From: a bacterium
Lineage (GTDB): Bacteria; Patescibacteriota; Minisyncoccia; UBA6257; 02-FULL-45-10c
Length of the DNA: 50,820 bases
Direction: 5' to 3'
Assembly (NCBI GenBank): GCA_030646915.1
Contig: JAUSKT010000019.1
Span: forward strand, 1 to 50,820
Part shown: positions 1 through 50,820 of the stretch, piece by piece
Layout: each line of letters begins with the position of its first letter
How positions within the stretch are numbered: the first letter of the stretch is position 1
Notes under the pieces: generated by a model
What the model was told of the DNA's origin: nothing
Database searches by the model: none
Seen by the model: the letters and a program-made list of their open reading frames with translations, nothing else
Made by a program: the position numbers and the translations under genes

Positions 1-75
1 CAGCACTACACCTAGGTGTAGTGCTGGACAATCGAAGCTTGCGACATAAAAGAAACCACGGAATTTAGTCCGTGG
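1..75 (+). repeat. Double-hairpin element copy 1 (5' part cut by window edge); IS200/IS605 right-end/omegaRNA-like
   Basis: Perfect palindrome cagcactacacctaggtgtagtgctg (1-26), linker cGAAGCTTGCGACATAAAAGAAACC, hairpin CCACGGA-atttag-TCCGTGG (56-75). Shares layout and linker with 21732-21811. Confidence 0.6.
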
Positions 76-96
76 AGTGGCCTTCATTTTTTTAAA

Positions 97-9041: not shown

Positions 9042-10523
9042 ATGCATTTGCACGATTTAACAATTAAAAAGTTTCATGATGGGCTTTTAAAAAAAGAATT
9101 TTCCGCTTTGGAAATGACTCAAAGTTTTTTTGACTGGATTGAGAAAAGAGATAAAGAGGTTGGCGCTTATTTAAGTTTAAATAAAGATTTAGCCGTTAGA
9201 CAGGCAGAAGAAACAGATTTAAAAATTGCTAAAAATATGCCGGTCAGTATGATGGCTGGTGTGCCAATGGCTATTAAAGACAATCTTTTAATAGAAGGTT
9301 TGCCGGCAACTGCCGCTTCAAAAATTTTAAAAGATTATACTGCCAGCTACGATGCGACGGTGATTAAGAAATTAAAATCCGCAGGAGCAGTTTTTCTTGG
9401 AAAAACTAATATGGATGAATTTGCTATGGGTTCTTCTACGGAAAATTCCGCATTCCAGAAAACTAAAAATCCTCATGATTTAACCCGGGTTCCCGGCGGT
9501 TCTTCTGGCGGATCAGCTGCAGCAGTGGCATCGCATATGGCAGTGGCAGCGCTTGGTTCAGATACCGGCGGATCAATTAGGCAGCCGGCGGCTTTTTGCG
9601 GAGTAGTGGGGTTAAAGCCGACTTACGGGGCAGTTTCTCGTTTTGGGGTAATTGCGATGGCTTCCAGCTTGGATCAGATCGGGCCGTTTACAAAAACCGT
9701 TGAAGATTCCGCGATTTTATTTAAAGAAATCCTTGGCCAGGATGGTTTAGATTCGACCAGCGTCAATGCTGATTATGGCGAGGAATTATTAAATCCAAAA
9801 TTAGAAAATATTAAAAAATTAAAAGTCGGCATTCCGGAAGAATACTTTGTGGAGGGATTAGATAAAGAAGTTGCGGAAAAGGTAGATGAAGCGATTAAAG
9901 CCATTCAAAGCCTGGGCTTGGAAATTAAAAAAATAAGTTTGCCTAATACCAAATACGCTCTGTCGTGCTATTACATTATTATGCCAGCAGAAGTTAGTTC
10001 TAATTTAGAAAGGTTTGATGGCATTCGCTATGGTACCAGGCAGAAAGCGGAAAATTTGTTAGAATTATATAAGAAGAACCGCGAAGCTGGATTTGGTGCT
10101 GAGTCGAAAAGAAGAATTCTGCTGGGAACTTTTGTGCTTTCTTCCGGATATTACGATGCTTATTATGCCAAAGCCCAGAAAGTCCGCCGGCTGATTAAAG
10201 AAGATTTTGACAGGGCATTTAAGGATGTGGATGTGATTTTAACTCCAGTTACTCCTACATTGCCGTTTAAAATCGGAGAAAAAACCAGTGATCCTTTGTC
10301 TATGTATTTATCTGATATTTTTACTATTCCAGTGAATTTAGCCGGACTTCCCGCAGTATCTATACCCATTAAGTCAAATGTCAAAGGTCCCGCCGAAGGC
10401 GAGGCTCGCCAAGGGCGGCAAATGTCAAAAGATTTGCCGGTTGGATTCCAATTAATCGGCAAGCCGTGGCGGGAAGCAGATATTTTAGGAATAGGGCAAT
10501 ATTACGAAAAATTATCCCGTTAG
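9042..10523 (+). CDS. gatA: Asp/Glu-tRNA amidotransferase subunit A
   Basis: Amidase signature GGSSGGSAAAVASHMAVAALGSDTGGSIRQPAAFCG. Confidence 0.97.
   Translation: MHLHDLTIKKFHDGLLKKEFSALEMTQSFFDWIEKRDKEVGAYLSLNKDLAVRQAEETDLKIAKNMPVSMMAGVPMAIKDNLLIEGLPATAASKILKDYTASYDATVIKKLKSAGAVFLGKTNMDEFAMGSSTENSAFQKTKNPHDLTRVPGGSSGGSAAAVASHMAVAALGSDTGGSIRQPAAFCGVVGLKPTYGAVSRFGVIAMASSLDQIGPFTKTVEDSAILFKEILGQDGLDSTSVNADYGEELLNPKLENIKKLKVGIPEEYFVEGLDKEVAEKVDEAIKAIQSLGLEIKKISLPNTKYALSCYYIIMPAEVSSNLERFDGIRYGTRQKAENLLELYKKNREAGFGAESKRRILLGTFVLSSGYYDAYYAKAQKVRRLIKEDFDRAFKDVDVILTPVTPTLPFKIGEKTSDPLSMYLSDIFTIPVNLAGLPAVSIPIKSNVKGPAEGEARQGRQMSKDLPVGFQLIGKPWREADILGIGQYYEKLSR
10375..10429. repeat. In-frame palindrome CCGCCgaaGGCGAGgCTCGCCaagGGCGG flanked by direct repeats CAAATGTCAAA
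   Basis: 11-nt direct repeats at 10375-10385 and 10419-10429; palindrome 10390-10418. Confidence 0.8.
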
Positions 10524-10636
10524 AGACAACCAAACTATGTTTAATGAATATTCAAAATTAGTATTTATAATTAATCGTCAGGAGCAATTTAGGCGGCCGG
10601 GCTACGGTCATCTAAAGATGACCTGTCTCTAACGGG
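10517..10636. promoter_or_regulatory. Inverted-repeat leader CCCGTTAGAGACA...TGTCTCTAACGGG; left arm holds the gatA stop, right arm abuts the next ATG
   Basis: 13-nt perfect arms; internal hairpin GGTCATC-taaa-GATGACC. Confidence 0.7.
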
Positions 10637-11278
10637 ATGGCAGGATTTAAAAAACCAGAAGTTAGCAGCAAACCATCAGGATTGGATTTATTGATTATTG
10701 GAGTTTTAATGGCCTCGTTTATTTCAGTAAGCGGAATTTTAGCTTTTTTATTGACGCCTCTGACAATTTTATACAGGATAAGAGATTTCTTTGCGCCTTT
10801 TTTTGAAAAATATCTTTTAACTTTTGAAATCAGCGCTATATTGCTTTCTATACTTTTTATTTGGGGAATTATTTATATTATTGATAAGACTAAGTATTTT
10901 GAACTTAAAAAAGAGCAGTTTTTGGATATTTTAGGGAAAGGCCATGTTTCCAAGCGCCGTTCCTTAAAGGGCTGGAAGCAGATTTTAGAAAGATTAAAAT
11001 CTTCCGAGCAAAATAGCTGGAAGCTTGCGATTTTGGAAGCTGATCATATTTTAAATGAAATTTTGAAAATGTCAGGTTATCTTGGTCCCAAACTGGAAGA
11101 TAAATTGGATTTGATTACTGCAGCCCAGATTTCAAATATAGACGATATAAATAAAGTCCATAAAATAAGGGATAAGATTGCTACTGACCCAGCTTTTCAG
11201 ATTACAAAAGAAGAAGCTGAGCACATTATTTCAGTTTATAAAAAAGCTTTCGTGGAATTGAATTTAATCAGAGAATAA
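10637..11278 (+). CDS. Hypothetical membrane protein (two TM helices plus helical C-terminal domain)
   Basis: Two hydrophobic segments; ORF follows the inverted repeat. Confidence 0.6.
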   Translation: MAGFKKPEVSSKPSGLDLLIIGVLMASFISVSGILAFLLTPLTILYRIRDFFAPFFEKYLLTFEISAILLSILFIWGIIYIIDKTKYFELKKEQFLDILGKGHVSKRRSLKGWKQILERLKSSEQNSWKLAILEADHILNEILKMSGYLGPKLEDKLDLITAAQISNIDDINKVHKIRDKIATDPAFQITKEEAEHIISVYKKAFVELNLIRE

Positions 11279-11711: not shown

Positions 11712-11758
11712 GCGGTGGTAGCTTATCACCGCCTACGGCGGGACCCCGCCAACGGCGG
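11712..11758. repeat. tRNA-Asp 5'-end-like fragment plus CCGCC-type palindrome
   Basis: gcggtggtagctta resembles the tRNA-Asp start gcggtagtagctta; CCGCCtacGGCGGGacCCCGCCaacGGCGG at 11729-11758. Confidence 0.6.
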
Positions 11759-11786: not shown

Positions 11787-11860
11787 GCGGTAGTAGCTTA
11801 GCGGCCTAAAGCGCCTCCCTGTCACGGAGGAGACCGTGGGTTCAAATCCCATCTACCGCG
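11787..11860 (+). tRNA. tRNA-Asp (GTC)
   Basis: Acceptor GCGGTAG/CTACCGC; anticodon arm CCTCC-CTGTCAC-GGAGG; T-arm GTGGG-TTCAAAT-CCCAT; no encoded CCA. Confidence 0.95.
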
Positions 11861-11869
11861 CAAAATTAA

Positions 11870-14313: not shown

Positions 14314-15477
14314 ATGTTAGAAGATTTAAAAAAACTAAAAACTGAAGCTCAAAAATTCTTAAAAGAAGTTAAAGATTCCAAAGAATTGGAAAATTTGAGA
14401 GTTAAATATTTAGGCAGAAAAGGGGAGCTGAATAAATTTTTTGATGTTTTAAAAAGCCTGTCTCTTGAAGAAAAGCGGAAATTTGCGCCTCCGCTTCAAA
14501 AATTAAAAAAAGAATTGGAAGAAATTTTGGATAAGAAAATTTCTGAACTTAGCCAATCTTTAAAATCTTCCGGCGGATTGGATATTACGATGCCAGGAAA
14601 GAAAATGTCCATGGGGCATTTGCATCCGCTGACAATTGTTGAAAAAGAAATCAGAGAAATTTTTAAAGCAATGAATTTTTCTGTAGTTGAAGGTCCGGAA
14701 GTGGAATCCGAATACTATAATTTTGACGCTTTAAATATTCCCAAAAGCCATCCAGCAAGAGATATGTGGGATACTTTCTGGTTACGAAGTAACCAGAAAC
14801 AATTGACAATTGACAATAAACAAATAACCAGCGGTAAAAGGTCAAATGTCAAAGGTCAAATGTTATTAAGGACTCATACCAGCCCAGTTCAGATCCGATA
14901 CATGGAACAGCATAAGCCCCCATTTCAAATAATTGTTCCCGGCAGAGTATTTCGTTTTGAAGCTACTGATGCCTCCCATGAAATCAATTTTTATCAGGTT
15001 GAGGGCTTAATGGTCGGGAAAGATGTGAATTTAGCGAATTTTAAATTTGTCATCCAGGAATTTTTTCAGAGGCTTTTTAAGAAAAATCTTAAAATCCGGC
15101 TTCGGCCAAGTTACTTTCCATTTGTTGAGCCCGGCTTAGAAGTGGATGTGCAATGCATCAGATGTGAGGGAACTGGAAGATTAGACGGCCCCGTAAAATC
15201 TGCTTCGCAGATCACGGGGCTCACTCAAAAGGGCTTGCCACGAGGGGGCGAAGCCCCTTTTCGTGGCTGTAATCTTTGCAAGGAATCCGGTTGGCTGGAA
15301 GTAATGGGCGCTGGAATGGTTCATCCGAGAGTTTTTGAGTCCGCGGGATATAATCCAAAAGATTTGCAAGGATTTGCTTTTGGTTTGGGATTAGAAAGAA
15401 TCGCCATGATTAAATATAATATTCCAGACATCCGCTTATTTTATTCCGGAGATTTAAGATTTATAAGACAGTTCTAA
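14314..15477 (+). CDS. pheS: Phenylalanyl-tRNA synthetase alpha subunit with repeat-encoded insertions
   Basis: KYLGRKGELNKFF; GPEVESEYYNFDALNIPKSHPARDMWDTFWL; GLGLERIAMIKYNIPDIRLFYSGDLRFIRQF. Start moved downstream of the leader (ATG 14314). Confidence 0.95.
   Translation: MLEDLKKLKTEAQKFLKEVKDSKELENLRVKYLGRKGELNKFFDVLKSLSLEEKRKFAPPLQKLKKELEEILDKKISELSQSLKSSGGLDITMPGKKMSMGHLHPLTIVEKEIREIFKAMNFSVVEGPEVESEYYNFDALNIPKSHPARDMWDTFWLRSNQKQLTIDNKQITSGKRSNVKGQMLLRTHTSPVQIRYMEQHKPPFQIIVPGRVFRFEATDASHEINFYQVEGLMVGKDVNLANFKFVIQEFFQRLFKKNLKIRLRPSYFPFVEPGLEVDVQCIRCEGTGRLDGPVKSASQITGLTQKGLPRGGEAPFRGCNLCKESGWLEVMGAGMVHPRVFESAGYNPKDLQGFAFGLGLERIAMIKYNIPDIRLFYSGDLRFIRQF
14775..14866. repeat. In-frame hairpin TTTCTGGTTAC-gaa-GTAACCAGAAA followed by acaattg and ggtcaaa/tgtcaaa heptads in pheS
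   Basis: Direct reading; encodes RSNQKQLTIDNKQITSGKRSNVKGQM. Confidence 0.8.
15188..15267. repeat. Two opposed copies of the bulged palindromic element, in frame in pheS
   Basis: 15188-15220 GCCCCGT-AAA-ATCTGC-ttc-GCAGAT-C-ACGGGGC; reverse complement of 15237-15267 is GCCACGA-AAA-GGGGC-ttc-GCCCC-C-TCGTGGC. Confidence 0.85.
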
Positions 15478-15484
15478 TAATAGA

Positions 15485-17482
15485 ATGAAATTTTCTTTTT
15501 CTTTAATTAAAAAATTAGCGCCTGGCAAATACACCAAATCCGAATTGGTTGAAAAGTTTAATTTGCATTTGTTTGAAACCGTAGATTTAGGAGGCGATGC
15601 TTTGGAAATTGTAGTTTCGCCGAACCGTTTCAGCGATGCTGCGTCTCATCTGGGGATTGCGATGGAAACAGCGGCTATTTTTGGAACTAAATTATCAGAT
15701 CCTAATTCGGGCGAGTTGAAATTTAATTCAAAAAGTCCGGGAGTTTTTCGGGTAAATATCCAGGATAAGAAATTAAGCAGGCGGTATTTGGCTGGTTATG
15801 TTTCCGAGGTTAAAATTGCTTCTTCTCCGATTTGGTTGAAAGAAATTTTGGAAACCTGCGGGCTTCGTTCAATTAATAATGTCGTTGATATTATGAATTA
15901 TGTAATGCTGAAAACCGGCCAGCCAATGCATGCTTTTGACGCGGATAAGGTTTCCGGAGGAATCGTTGTTCGGAAAGCAAAAAAAGGAGAAAAAATTGAT
16001 ACAATTGATAACCAGACTTTTTCTTTAGATAAAGAAATGCTGGTGATTGCGGACGCTAAAAAGAATCTGGCGATTGCCGGCATTAAGGGCGGAAAAAATA
16101 GTGAAATTGATTCTAATACCAAAAGAATTTTGGTTGAATCAGCTAATTTTGACAGCGCCAGCATTTATGACACTTCCAAAAAATTAGGATTGCGGACAGA
16201 CGCTTCGGTGAGATTTTCTCACAATCTTAGTCCAGAACTTGCTGAATTGGGAATAAAAACTGCCTTGGATTTGCTCCAAAAATTTGCCGGAGGGAAAATT
16301 CATCCCTATATTGATGTTTATCCAAAAAAACAATCTAAAAAATTATTACGGCTGGATATTGATAAAATGGCAAGTTTAATCGGGAAAGATTTAAAAGAAA
16401 AAGAAGTTGTAAATTTACTGAGCCAGCTGGGCTTTTCCGCCAAAGGCGGATTCGCCTCAGGAGGAAAAAAGCAAGGCAAGAATATAGAAGTTCCGGCTTT
16501 GCGGACGGACATTAACGATTCGGAAGATTTAGCAGAAGAGGTGGCGAGGCTGATTGGTTACAATAATTTAATTGCAAAGCCTCCTGCGGTTGCTTTAGGA
16601 TTCGCAGCCGAAGAAGAATTAATTTTGCTTAAAGACAGAATTAGGAATTTTTTGGCTGGAGCGGGGTTTAGTGAAGTTTATAATTATTCACTAATTTCCA
16701 AAGAAGATTTGGCCTTGGGGCCGGTAAAGATTTTTGGAAGCGGAGATGGCGTATTACTAGCAAATCCTATGAGCCGGCAATTGGCAGTGTTAAGAGACAG
16801 CCTTTCGCCTGGATTACTGAAAAACTTAAAAGATAATTTAAGATTTTTTGAAGAAGTCAGAATTTTTGAAATTGGCAATGTTTTCAGCCAGTCAAAAACC
16901 GGAACAGACGAAAAAACTCTTTTGGGGATTGCATTGGCGTCAAAAAATGCAGTTTTAGAATTGAAGGGATTACTAGATATTTTATTGGAGAAATTGGGGT
17001 TGGTGGATTATTTTTTGCCGGATTTAAATTATGACAATAAGCTTTTGAAAACTGGGGAGTCTTTAAGAATTGAAACTGGCGATCACAAAGTTTTGGGGTA
17101 TATGGGGTCGGTCCATGGAGTTAAAGGCGCAATTTTAGAATTAGATCTGGGAAAATTATTAAAATTAGTTGACGAAGAAAAAGAATACGAACCGCTTTCA
17201 AAATTTCCTTCCGTAATGAGGGATATTTCGATTTTAGCAGATAATCAAATTAGAGTTGGGGAAATTCTGGCAATGATTCAACGCATTAGTCTGAAATTAG
17301 TAGAAGATGTAGATTTGATTGATTGGTATCAAGATGAAAAATTAGGAGATAATAAAAAAAGTTTAACCTTTCGGATTGTTTTTCGCGCAGAAGACAGGAC
17401 TTTAACTGACCAGGAAGTGGATCGGGAAATGGCTGCAATTAATCAAATTTTAATTAATAAGTTTGATGTAGAATTAAGGTAA
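15485..17482 (+). CDS. pheT: Phenylalanyl-tRNA synthetase beta subunit
   Basis: B3/4 and B5 domain motifs; NNVVDIMNYVMLKTGQPMHAFD; C-terminal FDX-ACB domain; follows pheS. Confidence 0.95.
   Translation: MKFSFSLIKKLAPGKYTKSELVEKFNLHLFETVDLGGDALEIVVSPNRFSDAASHLGIAMETAAIFGTKLSDPNSGELKFNSKSPGVFRVNIQDKKLSRRYLAGYVSEVKIASSPIWLKEILETCGLRSINNVVDIMNYVMLKTGQPMHAFDADKVSGGIVVRKAKKGEKIDTIDNQTFSLDKEMLVIADAKKNLAIAGIKGGKNSEIDSNTKRILVESANFDSASIYDTSKKLGLRTDASVRFSHNLSPELAELGIKTALDLLQKFAGGKIHPYIDVYPKKQSKKLLRLDIDKMASLIGKDLKEKEVVNLLSQLGFSAKGGFASGGKKQGKNIEVPALRTDINDSEDLAEEVARLIGYNNLIAKPPAVALGFAAEEELILLKDRIRNFLAGAGFSEVYNYSLISKEDLALGPVKIFGSGDGVLLANPMSRQLAVLRDSLSPGLLKNLKDNLRFFEEVRIFEIGNVFSQSKTGTDEKTLLGIALASKNAVLELKGLLDILLEKLGLVDYFLPDLNYDNKLLKTGESLRIETGDHKVLGYMGSVHGVKGAILELDLGKLLKLVDEEKEYEPLSKFPSVMRDISILADNQIRVGEILAMIQRISLKLVEDVDLIDWYQDEKLGDNKKSLTFRIVFRAEDRTLTDQEVDREMAAINQILINKFDVELR
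16437..16464. repeat. CCGCC-family palindrome in pheT: CCGCCaaaGGCGgattCGCCtcaGGAGG
   Basis: Same segment layout as the gatA and 11729 copies. Confidence 0.65.
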
Positions 17483-21575: not shown

Positions 21576-21613
21576 AAAGAAAATTTAATCGGCAATCAGC
21601 CGATTTTTTATAT

Positions 21614-21815
21614 GCCGAAACACATTACTAAACCTCCGCACTTAACAATCCGGAGGTAATTATTAAGTGTAGATGTGAAACCATGGCTGTTTGCAGCTGG
21701 CTTGTCGAACTATTGGGCCGTGGATAGTTGGCATATCCGGCACTACACCTCGGTGTAGTGCCGGATATGTGAAGCTTGCGATATAAAGAAACCCCGGCCG
21801 TAAGGCCGGGGAGTT
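21614..21815 (+). ncRNA. Orphan IS200/IS605-end/omegaRNA-like structured element, copy 2
   Basis: 18-bp perfect hairpin 21732-21769, conserved linker GAAGCTTGCGATATAAAGAAACC, GTAA-capped hairpin 21792-21811, upstream helices ACCTCCG/CGGAGGT and AACTAT/ATAGTT. Confidence 0.55.
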
Positions 21816-21882
21816 TTATTTGATTTTAGGGTATTTTGTTGTTACTATTTTAAATAGTTCATTACAAAATAGATTGATAGAT

Positions 21883-34536: not shown

Positions 34537-34722
34537 ATGGGAGGAGTACCAGTTAAACATCGTTCTAAATCAGCTGTTGGCCATACCAGGTCTCATTTGG
34601 CGTTGAAAAAGATTCCGTTGAATGTCTGCGCGAATTGCAAGAATCCGGCTTTGCCGCACAGGGTTTGTATTAATTGCGGTTCTTATAGAAGTTCTGCGAT
34701 TCCAAAGCAAAGTAAAAAATAA
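34537..34722 (+). CDS. rpmF: Ribosomal protein bL32
   Basis: VPVKHRSKSAVGHTRSH...CANCKNPALPHRVCINCGSY. Confidence 0.9.
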   Translation: MGGVPVKHRSKSAVGHTRSHLALKKIPLNVCANCKNPALPHRVCINCGSYRSSAIPKQSKK

Positions 34723-35243
34723 TGGCAACTCGACAACTTTGCAGATCAATTGTTCTTCAATCTCTTTATGAGTGGGATTTTTATAAGTCCCGCCGTGCTG
34801 ATTTAAAAAATAAAAATAAAGAAGGCGGGATCCCGCCAGAGGCGGGACAACCTGATTTATTCGAAATTTTAGAAAGAAATCTTTTGGAATTCGGACCGGG
34901 CATTGATGAGCCGGATTTTGCAAAGAAATTAGCCCAGGGGATTATGGACCACAAAAAAGAAATTGATATTATTATTGAAAAAGCCGCGCCCGATTGGCCG
35001 TTAGCGCAGATTGCCGTTATTGACCGGAATGCTTTGCGAGTTGGCTTGTATGAGCTTTTATTTGCGGACCGCAATGAAGTTCCCCCGAAAGTTGCTATTA
35101 ATGAAGCAATTGAAATTGCTAAAAATTATGGAGGGCCGAATTCTGGAAAATTCATCAATGGAGTTTTGGGCACAATTTACAGGGAAATAGGCGAACCGGG
35201 CAGGGACGATAAAGCTCCGGAGAAAATAGTAAATAGTAAATAG
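34722..35243 (+). CDS. nusB: Transcription antitermination factor NusB
   Basis: RSIVLQSLYEWDF...VIDRNALRVGLYELLF...KVAINEAIEIAKNYGGPNSGKFINGVLG. Confidence 0.95.
   Translation: MATRQLCRSIVLQSLYEWDFYKSRRADLKNKNKEGGIPPEAGQPDLFEILERNLLEFGPGIDEPDFAKKLAQGIMDHKKEIDIIIEKAAPDWPLAQIAVIDRNALRVGLYELLFADRNEVPPKVAINEAIEIAKNYGGPNSGKFINGVLGTIYREIGEPGRDDKAPEKIVNSK
34824..34847. repeat. In-frame palindrome GGCGGGATCCCGCC-aga-GGCGGGA in nusB
   Basis: Encodes GGIPPEAGQ between NusB helices. Confidence 0.75.
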
Positions 35244-43133: not shown

Positions 43134-46100
43134 ATGAAATCCCTAAGAAAATATCTTAAAAAATTATTGCTGCCAAAATCGCTTATTATCAGCGCAGTGA
43201 TATTTTTATTTTCTTTCGGGAGCGCTGCCGCGGTTTCCGGTACGCCAACGATTATTAATTATCAAGCCAGATTGACCAATTCAAGCGGAAATTTGGTCAC
43301 TGGAACTTATTATTTCAAATTTTCTATTTGGGATAATCCAACAGTGGGTTCCGGAAATCAGTTATGGCCCACTACTGCTGGCGCTCCGCATTCTACTTCA
43401 ACTACAGTCACACAAGGAGTCTTTAATATAAAAATAGGGGATACGGCAAATGGATATCCGGATCCGTTAAATTATAATTTTAATACTAATAATACTGTTT
43501 ATCTTCAAGTTGAAGTTTCCTCAGATAATGCCAGTTTTGAAAAGCTATCACCCAGAAAACAAATCTCTTCCGCCGCTTTCGCCCAAGTTGCCGGAGCAGT
43601 GAGCGGAACTTCCACCCCGTCATCTTTTGGAACAACAACCCCGATTGGAAATTCTATTGTGACGATTGAAGCATCTTCTTCTGGCGCAGTTCCTCTTTCA
43701 ATCCGCGGAGCATCCGGGCAATCAGCGAATATTTTTCAAATCCAAGATTCTACTTCCGCTAATCTTTTATATTTAAATTCCTCTGGAAGTTTATTCGCAT
43801 CCTCATCTCTCCAAGTTTCCGGCACTTCTGTTTTTTATAGCAATTTGGGAATCGGTACTTCCACGCCCGGTTCATTACTCGCAGTTCAAGGCAATGCATT
43901 AATTTCCGGAAATTTAAATGTTGCGAATATTACCGCGACGGGGACTTTGACCGTAGCCGGAACAATTACTTTCAATAACGCTTCCACTACCGGAATGCTG
44001 ACGATTGGTAATGGTTTTATTTCTTCCGCTTCTTCCACGGTGGCTGGGCCGTTCCAAGTTTCCGGAGTTCTAAATGCTTCCTCAACAATCTCTGGAGGAA
44101 CCACGACAATTAATAATTTAATCGTCACCAATACTTCCACTTCCACTTTCACCGGGGGAGTATCCGCTAATACTTTAGGAGTTACTGGAACTTCCAGTTT
44201 AGCCGGATTATCTGCCGGTTTTGGAACATTTTCCGGAAATCTTTTGAGTCTTGGCAATTTGGATATAACCGGCACTTCTACACTTAACGGCTTATCCGCC
44301 GGCTTTGGAACATTCTCCAGCAATCTCGTCACTTCCAAAGATTTAAATGTCAGCGGATTAAGTTCTTTAAGTGGTTTTATTTCCTCGGCGTCTTCTACTG
44401 TTTCAAATACTTTACAAGTTACCGGCAATATACAAGCTTCTTCTTCGGTTTCAATTGGCGGCGTATTAGCATTAACCGGTACAACCGGAACTTCAACAAT
44501 TGCCAATGGACAAGGATTTACTATTGGCTCAACTCAATTAGTGCTTCAGCAGGGCAGTGGAAAAGTTGGAATCGGAACAAATGATCCGTCCACACTTTTA
44601 CATATAAAAGGAAGTAGCCCGATTTTTAGGCTAGATAACTCGGATAATATTTACTGGGAAATCAGAGGAGCTGCTAGTCAACTTATATTCGCTGACCAAA
44701 ACAACGGGCAAAGAGCGGCTATAGATACATCTGGCAATCTGTATTTAAGCGCAGGAAACTTCAAATCTGGAACATTAGGAAGCGCTTCAGCGCCGGCTTT
44801 TACTTTTTTTAATGATGATGATACTGGTATTTTTTCCGGAGACAATATATTAGGATTTGTCACTGGAGGATTAGAGAGGTCGCGCATTAATTCTTCCGGT
44901 CAGTTGGGTATTGCCACTAATACTCCCGGAGCTTTACTGGCAGTTCAAGGAAATGCCTTAATTTCTGGAAATTTAAATGTTGCCAATATCAATGCAACTG
45001 GAACATTAACAATCCCTTATGCTTCTACAACGATGGTGACGATGACTAATGGATTCATTTCTTCGGCTTCTTCCACATTGGCCGGATCTTTGCAGATTGC
45101 CGGCGTCTTGCAAGCCTCCTCCACCATCTCCGCAGGCACCACTACTATTACTAATTTGATTGTCACTAATACTTCCACCTCCACTATTGCCGGAGGATTC
45201 GCGGTTCAAACCAACAAACTCGTGGTAGACAAAGAAACCGGAAATGTGGGGGTCGGCACTACTACTCCAGGCTCTCTTTTCTCAGTTGCCGGTGATTCTT
45301 TATTGGGCGGATTAACAACTATCTATCGAGCTATTTTTGGATCCATTTCTGCTACCGGAACCCTTGATGTTTCCGGACTTTCCACTTTTTCCGGATTAAT
45401 TTCTACTGCATCTTCCACTTTTTCTAATAATCTAAATGTCAGCGGTCCGCTTTCTGCCTCATCTACTTTGAATGTCGGAGGATTAGCTTATCTTTCCGGG
45501 TTTATTTCCACCGCCTCATCCACGATTTCCAATTCCCTCAATGTTTCCGGACCATTATCTGCTTCTTCCACTTTGTCTGTGGCCGGACTGGCTACTCAAG
45601 TTGGAGGTTTTATTTCATCGGCTTCTTCTACGGTTTCTTCCAATCTTTTAGTCTCCGGAGTTTTCAATGCTTCTTCAACAATCTCCGGAGGAACCACGAC
45701 AATCAATAATTTAATCGTCACTAACACTTCCACTTCCACAATTGCCGGCGGCTTGGCGGTTCAAACCAATAAATTAGTGGTGGACAAAGAAACTGGAAAT
45801 GTCGGGGTGGGAACGACTACTCCAGGTTCGCTCTTTTCAGTTGCCGGAAATTCTCTGTTCGACGGACTTCTGACTGCCTATCGAACTCTCTTCGGATCAA
45901 TGACTGCCACCGGCACTCTCAATGTTTCCGGACTATCCGCGCTAACCGGAGGATTTATTTCTTCGGCATCATCAACGGTAGCAGGTAATTTCCACGTCTC
46001 TGGAGTTTTGAATGCTTCCTCAACTTTGCTGGCAAACGGACTTTCTGTTTTGACTGGAGGATTTATCAGTTCTGCTTCTTCCACTGTGGCCGGATCGTTG

Positions 46101-49100
46101 CAGGTAGCTGGCAATCTTCAAGCTTCATCAACAGTTTCAGCTAATGCTCTTTTTGTGGTGGGAAATACTGGTATCGGCACAACTTCTCCAGGCGCACTCT
46201 TTGCAGTCCAAGGCAATGCTTTGTTAGCTGGAAATCTTTGGGCCAATAATATTACTGCGACTGGGACAATCACCGTAACCGGAACTTCTGGGACTTCAAC
46301 AATCGGTTCCATCACTATCGGACCGAATGGCAGATTTGGTTTTAGCACCACTACTCCTAATATCGCCAATTTTGAAGTGGCGACCAGGACGATTGCATTT
46401 AACTCTGGAGCGGATGGATCATTGGGTTCCTGGTCAACTGCCAATGCTTTGCCGGGAATCAGGGGATATCATTCTTCTGTTACTGCTAATGGATATGCAT
46501 ATGTGATTGGAGGAACTGATGGTTCTTTTCAATCTACAATTTATTATGCAAAATTAAATAGTGACGGTTCAACCGGCGCTTGGGCAACCAATGCTAATGC
46601 TTTGCCGGGAATCAGGGGCGGACATTCTTCTGTTGCTGCTAATGGATATGTATATGTGATTGGAGGTAGAGGAATTGCCAATGCTCTTCAATCCACTATT
46701 TACTATACCTCTACTGCCCGGATTATGGTTTCTGGCAATTTGGATTTATTAGGCTTAGCTAGCACCACTCTTTCTGACAGCAGCGATTTTGGTTCTAATG
46801 GCAGTTCTATTTTTGCCGGCGATATATTCAGCAATGGGAAACTAGAAGTAACCGGCAACTCTATGCTTTGGAACGGGCTTGGAGTAAATGGATTATTATC
46901 TGTAACTGCCAGTTCATCTAATCAACAAAATGTTCCGATTTTTAGCATTCAAAATGCTACCGGCACAGTTCCATTATTTCAAGTTTTGTATAATGGCCTG
47001 GCTACTTTATCTAATGGATTTATCAGTTCGGCTTCTTCCACTGTGGCCGGATCGTTGCAGGTAGCTGGCCCATTATCCGCTTCCTCTACTTTGTCAGTAG
47101 CCGGACTGGCTACTCAAGTTGGAGGTTTTATTTCCTCGGCTTCTTCTACGATTTCTTCAAATCTTTTAGTTAGTGGATTTTTAAATGCTTCTTCGTCAGC
47201 AGCTATAGGCGGCGCATTGAGCGTTGGCGGAAACATCACTATTCCAACGGGAGGTTATGGCTTATTTATTAATGGAAATAATAGTGGGCTTAGTTTAGTA
47301 GGAGGACAGAATACTTCTGGTGGAGCAAGTATTTCAATATTTGGTATTGACCATTCAACATTATCGAATGTTATTCAATTCAATAGAGTGACAGGAGGTG
47401 AATCTGCAAGAATAGATACAAATGGACGATTGGGCATCGGAACTACTTCTCCATCCCAGCCCCTTTCGGTTCATGGAGGAGCTTTAATTGCCGGTACTAC
47501 TACTGTTAATGGTTTAATTGCCACGGGTTCGGTGTATATCACCGGAAATGTCGGAATCGGGACGACGAACCCGATAGGCAGTTTGGACGTCAAAGGCGTT
47601 GGTAATACTGCGGGCAGCATCGGTTTGCAGCTGCGAAGTGGCAACTCCTCTGAAGGGTTCCTCGGCAACCAAATAGTTTTTGGAAATTCCGGAACAACTG
47701 ATTATAACCAGGCAATAAAGACCCGTCACAACAACGCAACAAATAACAATGCTTTCGACTTTTATACCTGGCAAACAGGAGATGTGGCCGGGGATATCGG
47801 CAGTCTCTTTAACATGACTATCAACGGTGGCAAAGTTGGCGTTGGTACAACTTCACCCTCTCAACGCTTATCAGTCCACGGAAATGGATTATTTTCTGGA
47901 AATCTTAGTTTGGCTAATTTAACGGCAACTGGGACTTTGACTTTTGCTAATGCTTCCACTACCGGAATGTTAACCATTGGCAATGGTTTTATTTCTTCGG
48001 CTTCCTCAACGGTTTCTTCAAGTCTTAATGTCTCTGGTTCATTTATAGCTTCATCAAGCGTAGCATTAGCAGGGGAAGTTGTTATTGGCCCCGTAGCTCC
48101 TACTGGTTTTGGCAGAGCCTTAACTATTGGCGCTGCAGATATGGCAATTAATGTAATGGATTCAGATGTTGGTGGTACTGGAATTGGGATAGAATGGAAA
48201 AGAAATAATGGTACCGCCGATTTAGGGATAAGCATAACGGGGGGTCAAGTATATTTTTCTGGCAGAGCAGGAGATGTTTTCAATTTTCGCGCCGATGGCT
48301 CTAATAACGGTTTAACTTTGGATGCTAATGAACTTGCAACTTTAGTTAATGCCACTACGACTCAACTTACAGTTACTAATAATACTTATCTTGCAACCGC
48401 TGGAGGTAGTGTCGGCATCGGGACTACTACTCCGGGTAAAAAGTTAGTATTAGAAACAGGGACACATCAAGACGGTATAAATTTAGTTCAAACTAATTCA
48501 GCTTTTGATACTGGATTTAGTATTAATAATAGAAATGTTGTTAGCTACTTTGGGGGATGGTCTACAACTAAACTATTTATAAACGGCATGGCTGACTGGA
48601 CTGGCGGAGTTGAAGTTGGTTCGTTTGCCGGAAGTAAAACAAGTAATTTATTAATAAACGGTAATGTCGGCATTGGGACGGATAGTCCTGACTCCAATCT
48701 CGATGTTGTTAATACTGGTGCTGGTGCGGATAATATAATTTTGACGCTACAAAGCGATTCTGGAACGCCAGCCGCAGAGGACATTGCTAGGATTGACTTC
48801 AAATTCTCGGACGCTGGCGGGAATCAGGATGTAATGGCATCGGTAGTTGGCGTAGATGAAGACCCCGCAGAGGGAACCGAGGACGGTGGTCTTGCATTTT
48901 ATACTAGAGCCGCTGGCGGTTCTGTGACTGAAAAAGTGCGTTTAGGCTCAACTGGCAATCTTGGAATTGGCACTACCACTCCAGGCGCATTATTTTCAGT
49001 CCAAGGTAATGCTTTATTAGCTGGAAATCTTTGGGCCAATAATATTACGGCGACTGGAACTATCGGTATAAATGCAAATCAAAAACTTATATTAAATAGC

Positions 49101-50820
49101 GGGACAGATACTGCTTATCTTACAAGATCTACTGCTGGTACTGCTCATGTTTTAATCTACTCTGATGGAAATCAGCCGCTAGATATAGGTAATGGCGGTT
49201 TATCAGTCGGTACTTACGCAAATGTAACTTCTGCGCCAAGTAATGGAATTATTGTCAGCGGAAATGTTGGGGTCGGAGCATCAAGTCCAGTAGCAAAATT
49301 ACAAGTCAATACTACTTCTCAACCTGGCGTTACAACTTGGTACAATCCATCGGCGATGATGATAGTTGGGACGTCTACTAATGGAGGTTCTACTCTTGCA
49401 AATCCGGAAACCATACTCACTCTTTCAAGAAATGGCGTTGGTGGCACAGCATATGATAATTTTGCGCGCTTTGATTTAAAGCGTTATGTAAATTCCGGCG
49501 TCTCATCTAAAACCCAATTAGATATAAGACTAAGCGACGGAGATTTAAATTCTGAAGGAAATAATACGCCAACAATTATGTCATTGCAATCTGGCGGAAA
49601 CGTCGGCATCGGGACTACAACTCCCGGGGCTTTATTAGCGGTTCACGGCAATGCTTTGATTGCCGGCACGACAACTGTAAGAACTTTGGTTGCTACAGAT
49701 ACTTTATCTGTCGGAGTAACAAGGTTAGTTGTTGATGCTAGCGGAAAAGTTGGCATTGGAACAGATGCGCCTGCCGCAGGTTTGGACATGCGTGGATTTC
49801 AAGAAATGCGCATTGGTGGATCTGCCGCGCCATTCTTGGGCTTCTATCATACCGACAATTCCACCTTATATGGTCGGATTGGCATTGCAACAGCCGCAAA
49901 TCATTTTCTTACTGGGAGTGCCCAAGGCGACACCATTATTGCGGGTCAAACATCAAATTCAAAAATCCATTTTGGGCAGGTTACTAACGATAATCTCGTA
50001 ATGACTGTTGATGGCCAAAATGAGCGTGTCGGCATCGGCACAGTAAACCCAGGGAATAAATTAGAAGTGAATGGGGGCGGAAATGATGTTATCTCTTCTA
50101 TCTTGAGTGGTGGAACAGCAAAGTATGCGGTATTGGCAACGGGTAGGACTGCTATAGAAAATTACATTGGAACCGCTCAAGGAGTTGATGGTTTATCGAC
50201 TGGTGCAGTTGCTGGAGATTTAGTATTCCGTACTGAAAACAAAAATATGCTTTTTAATGTTAATGCCGGCAATAACGCGGCAATGTATATAAAATCAGAC
50301 AGCAAAGTCGGCATCGGCACCACGACTCCTGGAGCACTCTTTGCAGTCCAAGGTAATGGATTATTTTCCGGAAATCTTAGTTTGGCAAATTTAATCGCGA
50401 CGGGCAGTATTACTACAACCGGAACAGCGAGTTCCTCAATATCTCAAGCTCTAGGCATTGCCTCCTCAACTCCTTGGGGGACCTTATCTGTAGAAATGGG
50501 AGAAGTTAATCCTTCCTTTGTTGTAAGTAATAATGGCAGTTCTACTCCTTCCTTCTGGATAGGAGGAGTTAATCAAAATGGTTTTGTAGGGATTGGAACT
50601 TCTACTCCCGATCAACCACTAACTGTTTTTGGCAACATATCTAATTTACAAGCTAGCACCTCAATGAGATTAGTGGGACAGAATCAGGCGGCCGTTAATA
50701 CCGCGAGCAAATCCGATTTACAGGGCAAATATCTATTTTCTGGCACTCAAAACGGAGTATTTGAAATTTGGGATGTTTCTACTTCCACTCCTGCCTTAGT
50801 AAATTCTTTAACTATTTCCT
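43134..50820 (+). CDS. Giant secreted repeat protein (tail-fibre/S74-like GIGTTTPGALLAVQGNALI repeats), 3'-truncated by the window
   Basis: ATG 43134, signal peptide MKSLRKYLKKLLLPKSLIISAVIFLFSFGSAAA. Reading frame followed by eye with no stop found over most of its length. Absent from the ORF track because no stop lies in the window. Confidence 0.85.
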   Translation, partial: MKSLRKYLKKLLLPKSLIISAVIFLFSFGSAAAVSGTPTIINYQARLTNSSGNLVTGTYYFKFSIWDNPTVGSGNQLWPTTAGAPHSTSTTVTQGVFNIKIGDTANGYPDPLNYNFNTNNTVYLQVEVSSDNASFEKLSPRKQISSAAFAQVAGAVSGTSTPSSFGTTTPIGNSIVTIEASSSGAVPLSIRGASGQSANIFQIQDSTSANLLYLNSSGSLFASSSLQVSGTSVFYSNLGIGTSTPGSLLAVQGNALISGNLNVANITATGTLTVAGTITFNNASTTGMLTIGNGFISSASSTVAGPFQVSGVLNASSTISGGTTTINNLIVTNTSTSTFTGGVSANTLGVTGTSSLAGLSAGFGTFSGNLLSLGNLDITGTSTLNGLSAGFGTFSSNLVTSKDLNVSGLSSLSGFISSASSTVSNTLQVTGNIQASSSVSIGGVLALTGTTGTSTIANGQGFTIGSTQLVLQQGSGKVGIGTNDPSTLLHIKGSSPIFRLDNSDNIYWEIRGAASQLIFADQNNGQRAAIDTSGNLYLSAGNFKSGTLGSASAPAFTFFNDDDTGIFSGDNILGFVTGGLERSRINSSGQLGIATNTPGALLAVQGNALISGNLNVANINATGTLTIPYASTTMVTMTNGFISSASSTLAGSLQIAGVLQASSTISAGTTTITNLIVTNTSTSTIAGGFAVQTNKLVVDKETGNVGVGTTTPGSLFSVAGDSLLGGLTTIYRAIFGSISATGTLDVSGLSTFSGLISTASSTFSNNLNVSGPLSASSTLNVGGLAYLSGFISTASSTISNSLNVSGPLSASSTLSVAGLATQVGGFISSASSTVSSNLLVSGVFNASSTISGGTTTINNLIVTNTSTSTIAGGLAVQTNKLVVDKETGNVGVGTTTPGSLFSVAGNSLFDGLLTAYRTLFGSMTATGTLNVSGLSALTGGFISSASSTVAGNFHVSGVLNASSTLLANGLSVLTGGFISSASSTVAGSLQVAGNLQASSTVSANALFVVGNTGIGTTSPGALFAVQGNALLAGNLWANNITATGTITVTGTSGTSTIGSITIGPNGRFGFSTTTPNIANFEVATRTIAFNSGADGSLGSWSTANALPGIRGYHSSVTANGYAYVIGGTDGSFQSTIYYAKLNSDGSTGAWATNANALPGIRGGHSSVAANGYVYVIGGRGIANALQSTIYYTSTARIMVSGNLDLLGLASTTLSDSSDFGSNGSSIFAGDIFSNGKLEVTGNSMLWNGLGVNGLLSVTASSSNQQNVPIFSIQNATGTVPLFQVLYNGLATLSNGFISSASSTVAGSLQVAGPLSASSTLSVAGLATQVGGFISSASSTISSNLLVSGFLNASSSAAIGGALSVGGNITIPTGGYGLFINGNNSGLSLVGGQNTSGGASISIFGIDHSTLSNVIQFNRVTGGESARIDTNGRLGIGTTSPSQPLSVHGGALIAGTTTVNGLIATGSVYITGNVGIGTTNPIGSLDVKGVGNTAGSIGLQLRSGNSSEGFLGNQIVFGNSGTTDYNQAIKTRHNNATNNNAFDFYTWQTGDVAGDIGSLFNMTINGGKVGVGTTSPSQRLSVHGNGLFSGNLSLANLTATGTLTFANASTTGMLTIGNGFISSASSTVSSSLNVSGSFIASSSVALAGEVVIGPVAPTGFGRALTIGAADMAINVMDSDVGGTGIGIEWKRNNGTADLGISITGGQVYFSGRAGDVFNFRADGSNNGLTLDANELATLVNATTTQLTVTNNTYLATAGGSVGIGTTTPGKKLVLETGTHQDGINLVQTNSAFDTGFSINNRNVVSYFGGWSTTKLFINGMADWTGGVEVGSFAGSKTSNLLINGNVGIGTDSPDSNLDVVNTGAGADNIILTLQSDSGTPAAEDIARIDFKFSDAGGNQDVMASVVGVDEDPAEGTEDGGLAFYTRAAGGSVTEKVRLGSTGNLGIGTTTPGALFSVQGNALLAGNLWANNITATGTIGINANQKLILNSGTDTAYLTRSTAGTAHVLIYSDGNQPLDIGNGGLSVGTYANVTSAPSNGIIVSGNVGVGASSPVAKLQVNTTSQPGVTTWYNPSAMMIVGTSTNGGSTLANPETILTLSRNGVGGTAYDNFARFDLKRYVNSGVSSKTQLDIRLSDGDLNSEGNNTPTIMSLQSGGNVGIGTTTPGALLAVHGNALIAGTTTVRTLVATDTLSVGVTRLVVDASGKVGIGTDAPAAGLDMRGFQEMRIGGSAAPFLGFYHTDNSTLYGRIGIATAANHFLTGSAQGDTIIAGQTSNSKIHFGQVTNDNLVMTVDGQNERVGIGTVNPGNKLEVNGGGNDVISSILSGGTAKYAVLATGRTAIENYIGTAQGVDGLSTGAVAGDLVFRTENKNMLFNVNAGNNAAMYIKSDSKVGIGTTTPGALFAVQGNGLFSGNLSLANLIATGSITTTGTASSSISQALGIASSTPWGTLSVEMGEVNPSFVVSNNGSSTPSFWIGGVNQNGFVGIGTSTPDQPLTVFGNISNLQASTSMRLVGQNQAAVNTASKSDLQGKYLFSGTQNGVFEIWDVSTSTPALVNSLTIS

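Follow-up and report, generated by a model that had tools for sequence, protein, structure and literature searches.

Genomes of Patescibacteria probably harbour short palindromic DNA repeats that multiply and insert themselves into genes, essential ones among them, in the manner of the selfish Rickettsia palindromic elements (RPE). The copy in gatA belongs to a dispersed repeat with a 30-nt core, CCGCCnnnGGCGAGGCTCGCCnnnGGCGGC, of which 16 copies have been found in 7 patescibacterial genomes (two in the genome analysed here and 14 in six others). The window, by which we mean the whole stretch of 50,820 nt that was analysed, is contig C14 of a draft genome (599 kb, 22 contigs, 77% complete; GC, 38%), and among named records the nearest matches of its GatA are Parcubacteria-type (CPR/Patescibacteria) genomes.

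Four palindromic sites with a common layout

In a preliminary description of the window, palindromic sequences were reported at 11729-11758, 10390-10418, 16437-16464 and 34824-34847, the letters and coordinates of which proved exact, and it was proposed that one layout recurs among them with constant stems and variable 3-nt loops, which is borne out. The pattern CCGCCN3GGCGN{2,8}CGCCN3GGNGG occurs three times in the window as compared with none in 100 dinucleotide shuffles, and four times in the 599-kb genome as compared with none in 20 shuffles, which rules out chance by composition. The three copies within genes (GatA, PheT and NusB) preserve the reading frame, as had been stated, and all are lineage-specific insertions relative to orthologues; alignment found none of these segments to be conserved in orthologues, the NusB insert alone being shared with one other genus, which rules out conserved coding sequence and favours the original claim. 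A fourth coding copy, absent from that description, lies at C15:17428 in a gene for phosphomannomutase (PMM).

The layout shared by the PheT, NusB, 11729 and gatA sites consists of CGCC-3nt-GGCG, a central GGCG..CGCC palindrome and a second triloop hairpin. The proposal that all four form one family holds only in part, in that PheT, NusB and 11729 are alike in layout, but proven sequence relatives exist for the gatA copy alone, and no dispersed copy linking the other three to the GatA core was found in the genome. In the alignment, the central palindrome reads GGCGAG.CTCGCC in GatA as opposed to GGCGGG..CCCGCC in 11729 and NusB, and from this paired change a remote common origin of the GatA, 11729 and NusB palindromes is possible.

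The single hairpin CGCCN3GGCG occurs at 26 places in the genome, five-fold more often than the 5.2 expected, as compared with 5 for the reversed pattern. At 10 of these places the hairpin is part of normal, conserved coding sequence, at 8 there was no orthologue suited to a test, 2 belong to the 11729 site and 6 fall in insertions (in 4 genes), so that palindromic insertions account for only part of the excess. Single-strand folding was better than that of shuffles for NusB (z -4.3) and PheT (z -2.8) and was not better for 11729 (z -1.0) and GatA (z -1.3). Judged from the letters, a cruciform may form at each of the four sites.

The GatA insertion and the dispersed core

The following features are found at gatA:
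9042-10523, forward strand: gatA, host gene (Pfam Amidase; TIGR00132 gatA above cut-off)
10377-10430, forward strand: in-frame insertion in GatA, residues 446-463, NVKGPAEGEARQGRQMSK, composed of heptads, the 30-nt core and further heptads (orthologue gap, solved chains, AlphaFold model)
10390-10419, forward strand: 30-nt core cassette CCGCCGAAGGCGAGGCTCGCCAAGGGCGGC, stop-free in all six frames (identical copy at C15:17428-17457)
10514-10639, no strand assigned: long MITE-like element with ends ATCCCGTTAGAGACA and TGTCTCTAACGGGAT (repeat family; fold z -6.0)

With its flanking repeats the insertion amounts to 18 aa (54 nt), and it is missing from family orthologues, which have from none to a few residues at this place in the alignment; the solved GatA chains 3h0l and 2df4 likewise show a gap. 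In the AlphaFold model of GatA (mean pLDDT 87), residues 446-462 are the sole segment below 50 and form a loop between strands 438-442 and 468-473. For GatA, the one protein in which this was tested, the model thus places the insertion in a predicted disordered loop, a position at the surface that would be tolerated. Other, unrelated repeat-like inserts, e.g. TQTNADKIQRSSALSQRKSAS, are seen in the same loop in the GatA of G014, G029 and G040 (L152, L157 and L160), as if the loop were a tolerant hot spot across genera.

A stretch of 60 nt is 100% identical between gatA and the PMM ORF on contig C15, where it is read in the same frame, giving the peptide SNVKGPAEGEARQGRQMSK in both, and the PMM copy is an in-frame insertion relative to G006. 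When the order was searched with the centre left free (pattern CGCCNNNGGCGNGNCNCGCCNNNGGCG), 10 further copies were found in four genomes (G008, G072, G214 and G236), nine of them with the centre GAGGCTC, and 384 genomes drawn from the phylum contributed four more, one in G369 and three in G480. Reversed-pattern controls gave zero in all genomes but one. The core ends in GGCGGC in 15 of the 16 copies and follows TC in 15 of the 16, neither of which is required by the search pattern, and its unpaired centre GAGGCTC is also fixed. In the own genome, G236 and G480, the loops are common to the copies of each genome, and they differ between genomes (GAA/AAG in both own copies, AAG/AGA in all five of G236, CAA following GGA in all three of G480), which fits amplification inside each genome from one source copy; in G008 and in G072, the loops differ between the two copies of each genome. 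No match to the gatA element was found in plasmid and phage collections, and an origin from either was set aside.

Ten of the 16 copies lie inside ORFs, in frame and all in sense orientation, and the host genes of the other genomes have been confirmed as IleS, MurE, HolB, UvrC, GltX and ROK:
own genome: GatA; PMM
G236: IleRS, three copies (two in L278; one in L274, the same gene continued over a contig break); MurE; GltX
G214: ROK kinase
G008: HolB
G369: UvrC

In G236, five copies are therefore spread over three genes, and the best solved chain for its GltX has no residues at the inserted stretch. The core is read in three frames (PAKGEARQ.RQ, RQGRGSPEAA and PPRARLARGG), all of which occur in the single ileS gene of G236. 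Since the core is 10 codons long and, by inspection, stop-free in six frames, the bare core would keep any frame into which it is placed. Besides its palindromic inserts, the same IleRS (L278) has a histidine phosphatase domain (PF00300, E 1.6e-34) embedded in the synthetase at residues 526-694.

Arrays of 7-nt repeats around the core

Seven of the 10 coding cores sit between 7-nt repeats, which are AAAxGTC in the own genome and AAAAATC or AAAAGTC in G236; the UvrC core of G369 adjoins CACGGAT repeats, and the HolB and ROK cores have no 7-nt arrays. The repeat found at the flanks of the gatA core recurs in pheS:
14837-14857, forward strand: array of heptads, AAAGGTCAAATGTCAAAGGTC, within pheS

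Without exception, the ten pure arrays of the own-genome repeat lie within ORFs and on their coding strand, an orientation explained by the TGA that the opposite strand contains. The only flank that recurs at the core is YTC before it and AA after it, and relatives are too diverged (nearest ~69% protein identity) for exact empty sites.

Insertions in PheT, PheS and NusB

Three further insertions in the window carry palindromes:
15172-15261, forward strand: insertion of 30 aa that keeps the frame of PheS and forms two strong hairpins, not mentioned in the preliminary description (lacking from the orthologue in G006; fold z -3.5; single-copy in the genome)
15485-17482, forward strand: pheT, host gene (Pfam B3_4, B5, CLM, FDX-ACB; TIGR00472)
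16436-16468, forward strand: 10-aa in-frame insertion located in PheT domain B5, with the palindrome TTTTCCGCCaaaGGCGgattCGCCtcaGGAGGAAAA (orthologue gap)
34722-35243, forward strand: nusB, host gene (Pfam NusB; TIGR01951)
34794-34850, forward strand: 19-aa in-frame insertion in NusB with GGCGGGATCCCGCCagaGGCGGGAC, whose partner stem GTCCCGCC begins immediately ahead of the insert, at 34787 (orthologues)

The extra residues of PheT, AKGGFASGGK, are missing from all 16 family orthologues, and their DNA is a near-perfect foldback with 16-nt arms. Nineteen nucleotides of it are common to one other place in the genome (C6:103680); a fresh insertion there (C6:103685) was considered and rejected, as the sequence is also present in G006. 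Among 13 family orthologues, the NusB insertion is found in G005 only and is absent in 12, and the only relative of its DNA is at that same site in G005. The insert is 93% identical between the two genomes, as compared with 73% for the remainder of nusB and an average protein identity of 63% between the genomes, which suggests, at the level of sequence, late exchange or constraint. Horizontal transfer of a tract covering the whole 5' end of nusB is weakened as an explanation by G001, which has no insert and is nevertheless 97% identical in the 5' part.

The intergenic site upstream of tRNA-Asp

The fourth site lies outside genes:
11712-11725, forward strand: GCGGTGGTAGCTTA, which copies part of the 5' end of tRNA-Asp and immediately precedes the hairpins (13/14 identical to tRNA-Asp 1-14 in a local alignment)
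11729-11758, no strand assigned: double hairpin CCGCCtacGGCGGGacCCCGCCaacGGCGG between genes, lying 28 bp before tRNA-Asp (sequence, pattern count)
11787-11861, forward strand: tRNA-Asp (GTC) (ARAGORN; Rfam RF00005)

No second copy of the 11729 sequence longer than 15 nt is present in the genome. An identical stretch of 22 nt, GGCGGGACCCCGCCAACGGCGG, occurs in G155, and in a search of 245 genomes of the order the strict 11729-type pattern was found outside the own genome only in G048 and G155. The partial tRNA-Asp copy upstream is also seen in G011 (score 22.5) and, in shorter form, in G004 (11 nt aligned), and not in six other genomes of the family; a tRNA-Asp leader conserved in the family was rejected because the copy is confined to the own genome, G011 and, weakly, G004. 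A known RNA family was likewise rejected, as Rfam matches in the window are to tRNAs only. In G006, the tRNA-Asp (L239:3196-3468; G006 C1:483225-483514) is interrupted at 36/37 by an intron with an Rfam group I intron match (E 2.5e-14); the own tRNA-Asp has no intron.

Further palindromes and repeats in the genome

Hairpins are enriched in insertions of the genome at large. Across 610 orthologue pairs with G006, the well-aligned proteins contained 87 insertions that keep the frame and measure 7-45 aa, and, as judged against matched windows, strong hairpins were present in 16 of the 87 as compared with 2.4 expected (11 as compared with 0.35 at a stricter threshold). The largest in-gene family is an element of 48 or 66 nt with the ends CCCGTTAGAG...CTCTAACGGG; all copies of these two lengths are multiples of three, most lie in ORFs, and one copy each is found in G001, G010 and G011. 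The in-frame copies of the own genome, encoding peptides like PVRGREGSQRASASNG, include:
C4:21216
C6:52717, C6:67115 and C6:98523
C9:2367 and C9:3943
C15:4661, and others

Elements of 100-124 nt with CCCGTTAGAG-type ends are mostly outside ORFs, and the ends are common to short and long copies; a parent insertion sequence was sought and not found. The long element at 10514-10639 adjoins the 3' side of gatA, and its left end provides the gatA stop codon. Two other kinds of repeat were observed in the window, i.e. a dispersed element with the palindrome GCACTACACCTAGGTGTAGTGC and more hairpins (window 1-90 and 21602-21822; around a dozen copies genome-wide), and degenerate tandem repeats at 43800-50820, which encode a repetitive protein and are related to repeats on contigs C8-C11.

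Possible origin and spread of the palindromes

In the explanation that we prefer, the palindromes would behave as selfish, non-autonomous elements, of which the only surviving insertions would be those that are in frame, free of stops and in tolerant loops. The in-frame and sense state of the copies would then be due to this survival filter and not to a useful peptide. The core may enter, or ride in, 7-nt arrays that end in TC and are followed by AA, with the arrays offering either a place to land or the homology needed for copying, a step that we put forward more guardedly; the 11729 copy would be the intergenic counterpart, within a pseudo-tRNA-Asp stretch. A search for Y1_Tnp gave matches in G214, G236 and G480, and none in the own genome (a 77%-complete draft), G008, G072 or G369. 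It counts against this explanation that no transposase is tied to the core, that the two copies in G008 and in G072 differ in their loops, and that the palindromes of PheT, PheS and 11729 are single-copy, such that the evidence for mobility comes from other copies. A more ambitious version, in which a mobile unit of composite nature and specific to Patescibacteria, i.e. a 10-codon palindromic cassette stop-free in six frames, enters 7-nt arrays, is harmless in essential genes and remodels proteins throughout the phylum, we regard as doubtful.

The main rival concerns the last step, in which DNA taken up from relatives, or other copies on the chromosome, would pair by way of the 7-nt arrays and the core would be copied as a patch of gene conversion. 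This has an appreciable though minor chance of being correct, since 7-nt repeats are present on both sides of the core in the own genome and in G236, CACGGAT repeats adjoin it in G369, and the NusB insert is far closer to that of G005 than is the rest of the gene. However, the HolB and ROK copies are without arrays, and the 5' part of nusB is kept elsewhere too, as seen in G001, so the common tract may partly reflect constraint. An origin on the spot, where slippage and intrastrand template switching at replication forks make perfect inverted repeats out of imperfect ones, and these are not mobile and are alike by convergence, is rather unlikely for the palindromes as a whole; it would suit the lack of second copies for the PheT, PheS and 11729 inserts, the foldback of PheT, and the arrays at the GatA core, which are typical slippage products, but the 60-nt identity between GatA and PMM, together with the 16 copies in 7 genomes with a fixed GAGGCTC centre, makes it impossible for the core.

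That selection keeps the hairpins as functional signals at the RNA or DNA level (for translation pausing, for mRNA stability, as terminators or for uptake) is improbable. Conserved stems with varying loops, the many simple CGCCN3GGCG hairpins over the order, and the NusB and PheT folds that surpass shuffles would agree with it, whereas the palindromes are missing from nearly all orthologues, their host genes differ per genome, they are read in three frames, and the GatA and 11729 folds are no better than shuffles; for an uptake signal, two copies per genome are too few. Least credible of all is an artefact of assembly or binning in a draft metagenome genome. Such a genome, with 22 contigs and 77% completeness, invites the suspicion, as palindromes break assemblies and a contig of G005 ends at the nusB insert, but all ORFs are open across the inserts and the core lies inside genes of six other genomes.

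Comparison with known systems

RPE of Rickettsia (Ogata et al. 2000, 2002, as reviewed in PMC2229807 and PMC10969869) are palindromes of 105-150 bp that are found in frame in many unrelated conserved genes as well as between genes and are tolerated by the host protein, and RNA genes have also been reported to contain palindromes of Rickettsia (PMC2229807). The selfish palindromes proposed here resemble them in that palindromic repeats occur in several unrelated genes of one genome (the 60 nt of GatA and PMM; the five copies in three genes of G236), that the insertions are in frame relative to orthologues (GatA, PheT, NusB and PMM), and that 11729 lies in a partial tRNA-Asp copy, comparable to RPE in RNA genes. 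Unlike RPE, the core is 30 nt, or 54 nt with its flanking repeats, is used in three frames, is flanked by 7-nt arrays and has Patescibacteria as hosts. Membership of the Rickettsia RPE family was rejected on size (30 nt for the core and 54 nt for the GatA insert, as opposed to ~105-150 bp), and kinship in sequence is not claimed. Palindromic repeats with coding potential in Wolbachia and Methanocaldococcus (Ogata 2005; Suyama 2005, cited in PMC2229807) represent the same phenomenon, the likeness being one of description and not of sequence.

The CCCGTTAGAG elements of the own genome are like intragenic MITEs, such as the Coxiella QMITEs (PMC5896051) and enterobacterial RU elements (PMC2759123), which are small and non-autonomous, have inverted ends and sometimes make in-frame fusions. 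The GC core differs from MITEs in that, beyond its own palindrome, it is not known to have terminal inverted repeats or a parent among insertion sequences. REP and the GTAG- and CGTC-tagged palindromes (PMC3733652), which are scattered GC-rich hairpins of 20-40 bp, by definition extragenic and associated with Y1 (RAYT) transposases, are similar as short GC-rich hairpins dispersed in a genome; a REP/RAYT system was rejected, as 10 of the 16 core copies are in ORFs and not extragenic; a Y1 match was not found in the own draft genome and was found in three of the six others with the core.

A search of the open literature found no earlier report of such elements in CPR/Patescibacteria, which is weak evidence that there is none. 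The phenomenon, once described as peculiar to Rickettsia and a few others, would be widened to essential genes in several families of a large phylum whose genomes are reduced and whose members are mostly uncultured. It would explain odd short insertions in patescibacterial housekeeping proteins, by which annotation, alignment and structure prediction can be led astray, and the IleRS of G236, with the same element in three frames of one gene, offers a case in which the conversion of selfish DNA into protein sequence can be studied. Protein-coding palindromes are known in Rickettsia, Wolbachia, Methanocaldococcus, Coxiella and enterobacteria (PMC2229807, PMC10969869, PMC5896051, PMC2759123), and from these the elements described here are set apart by their length, their 7-nt flanks and their use of three frames.
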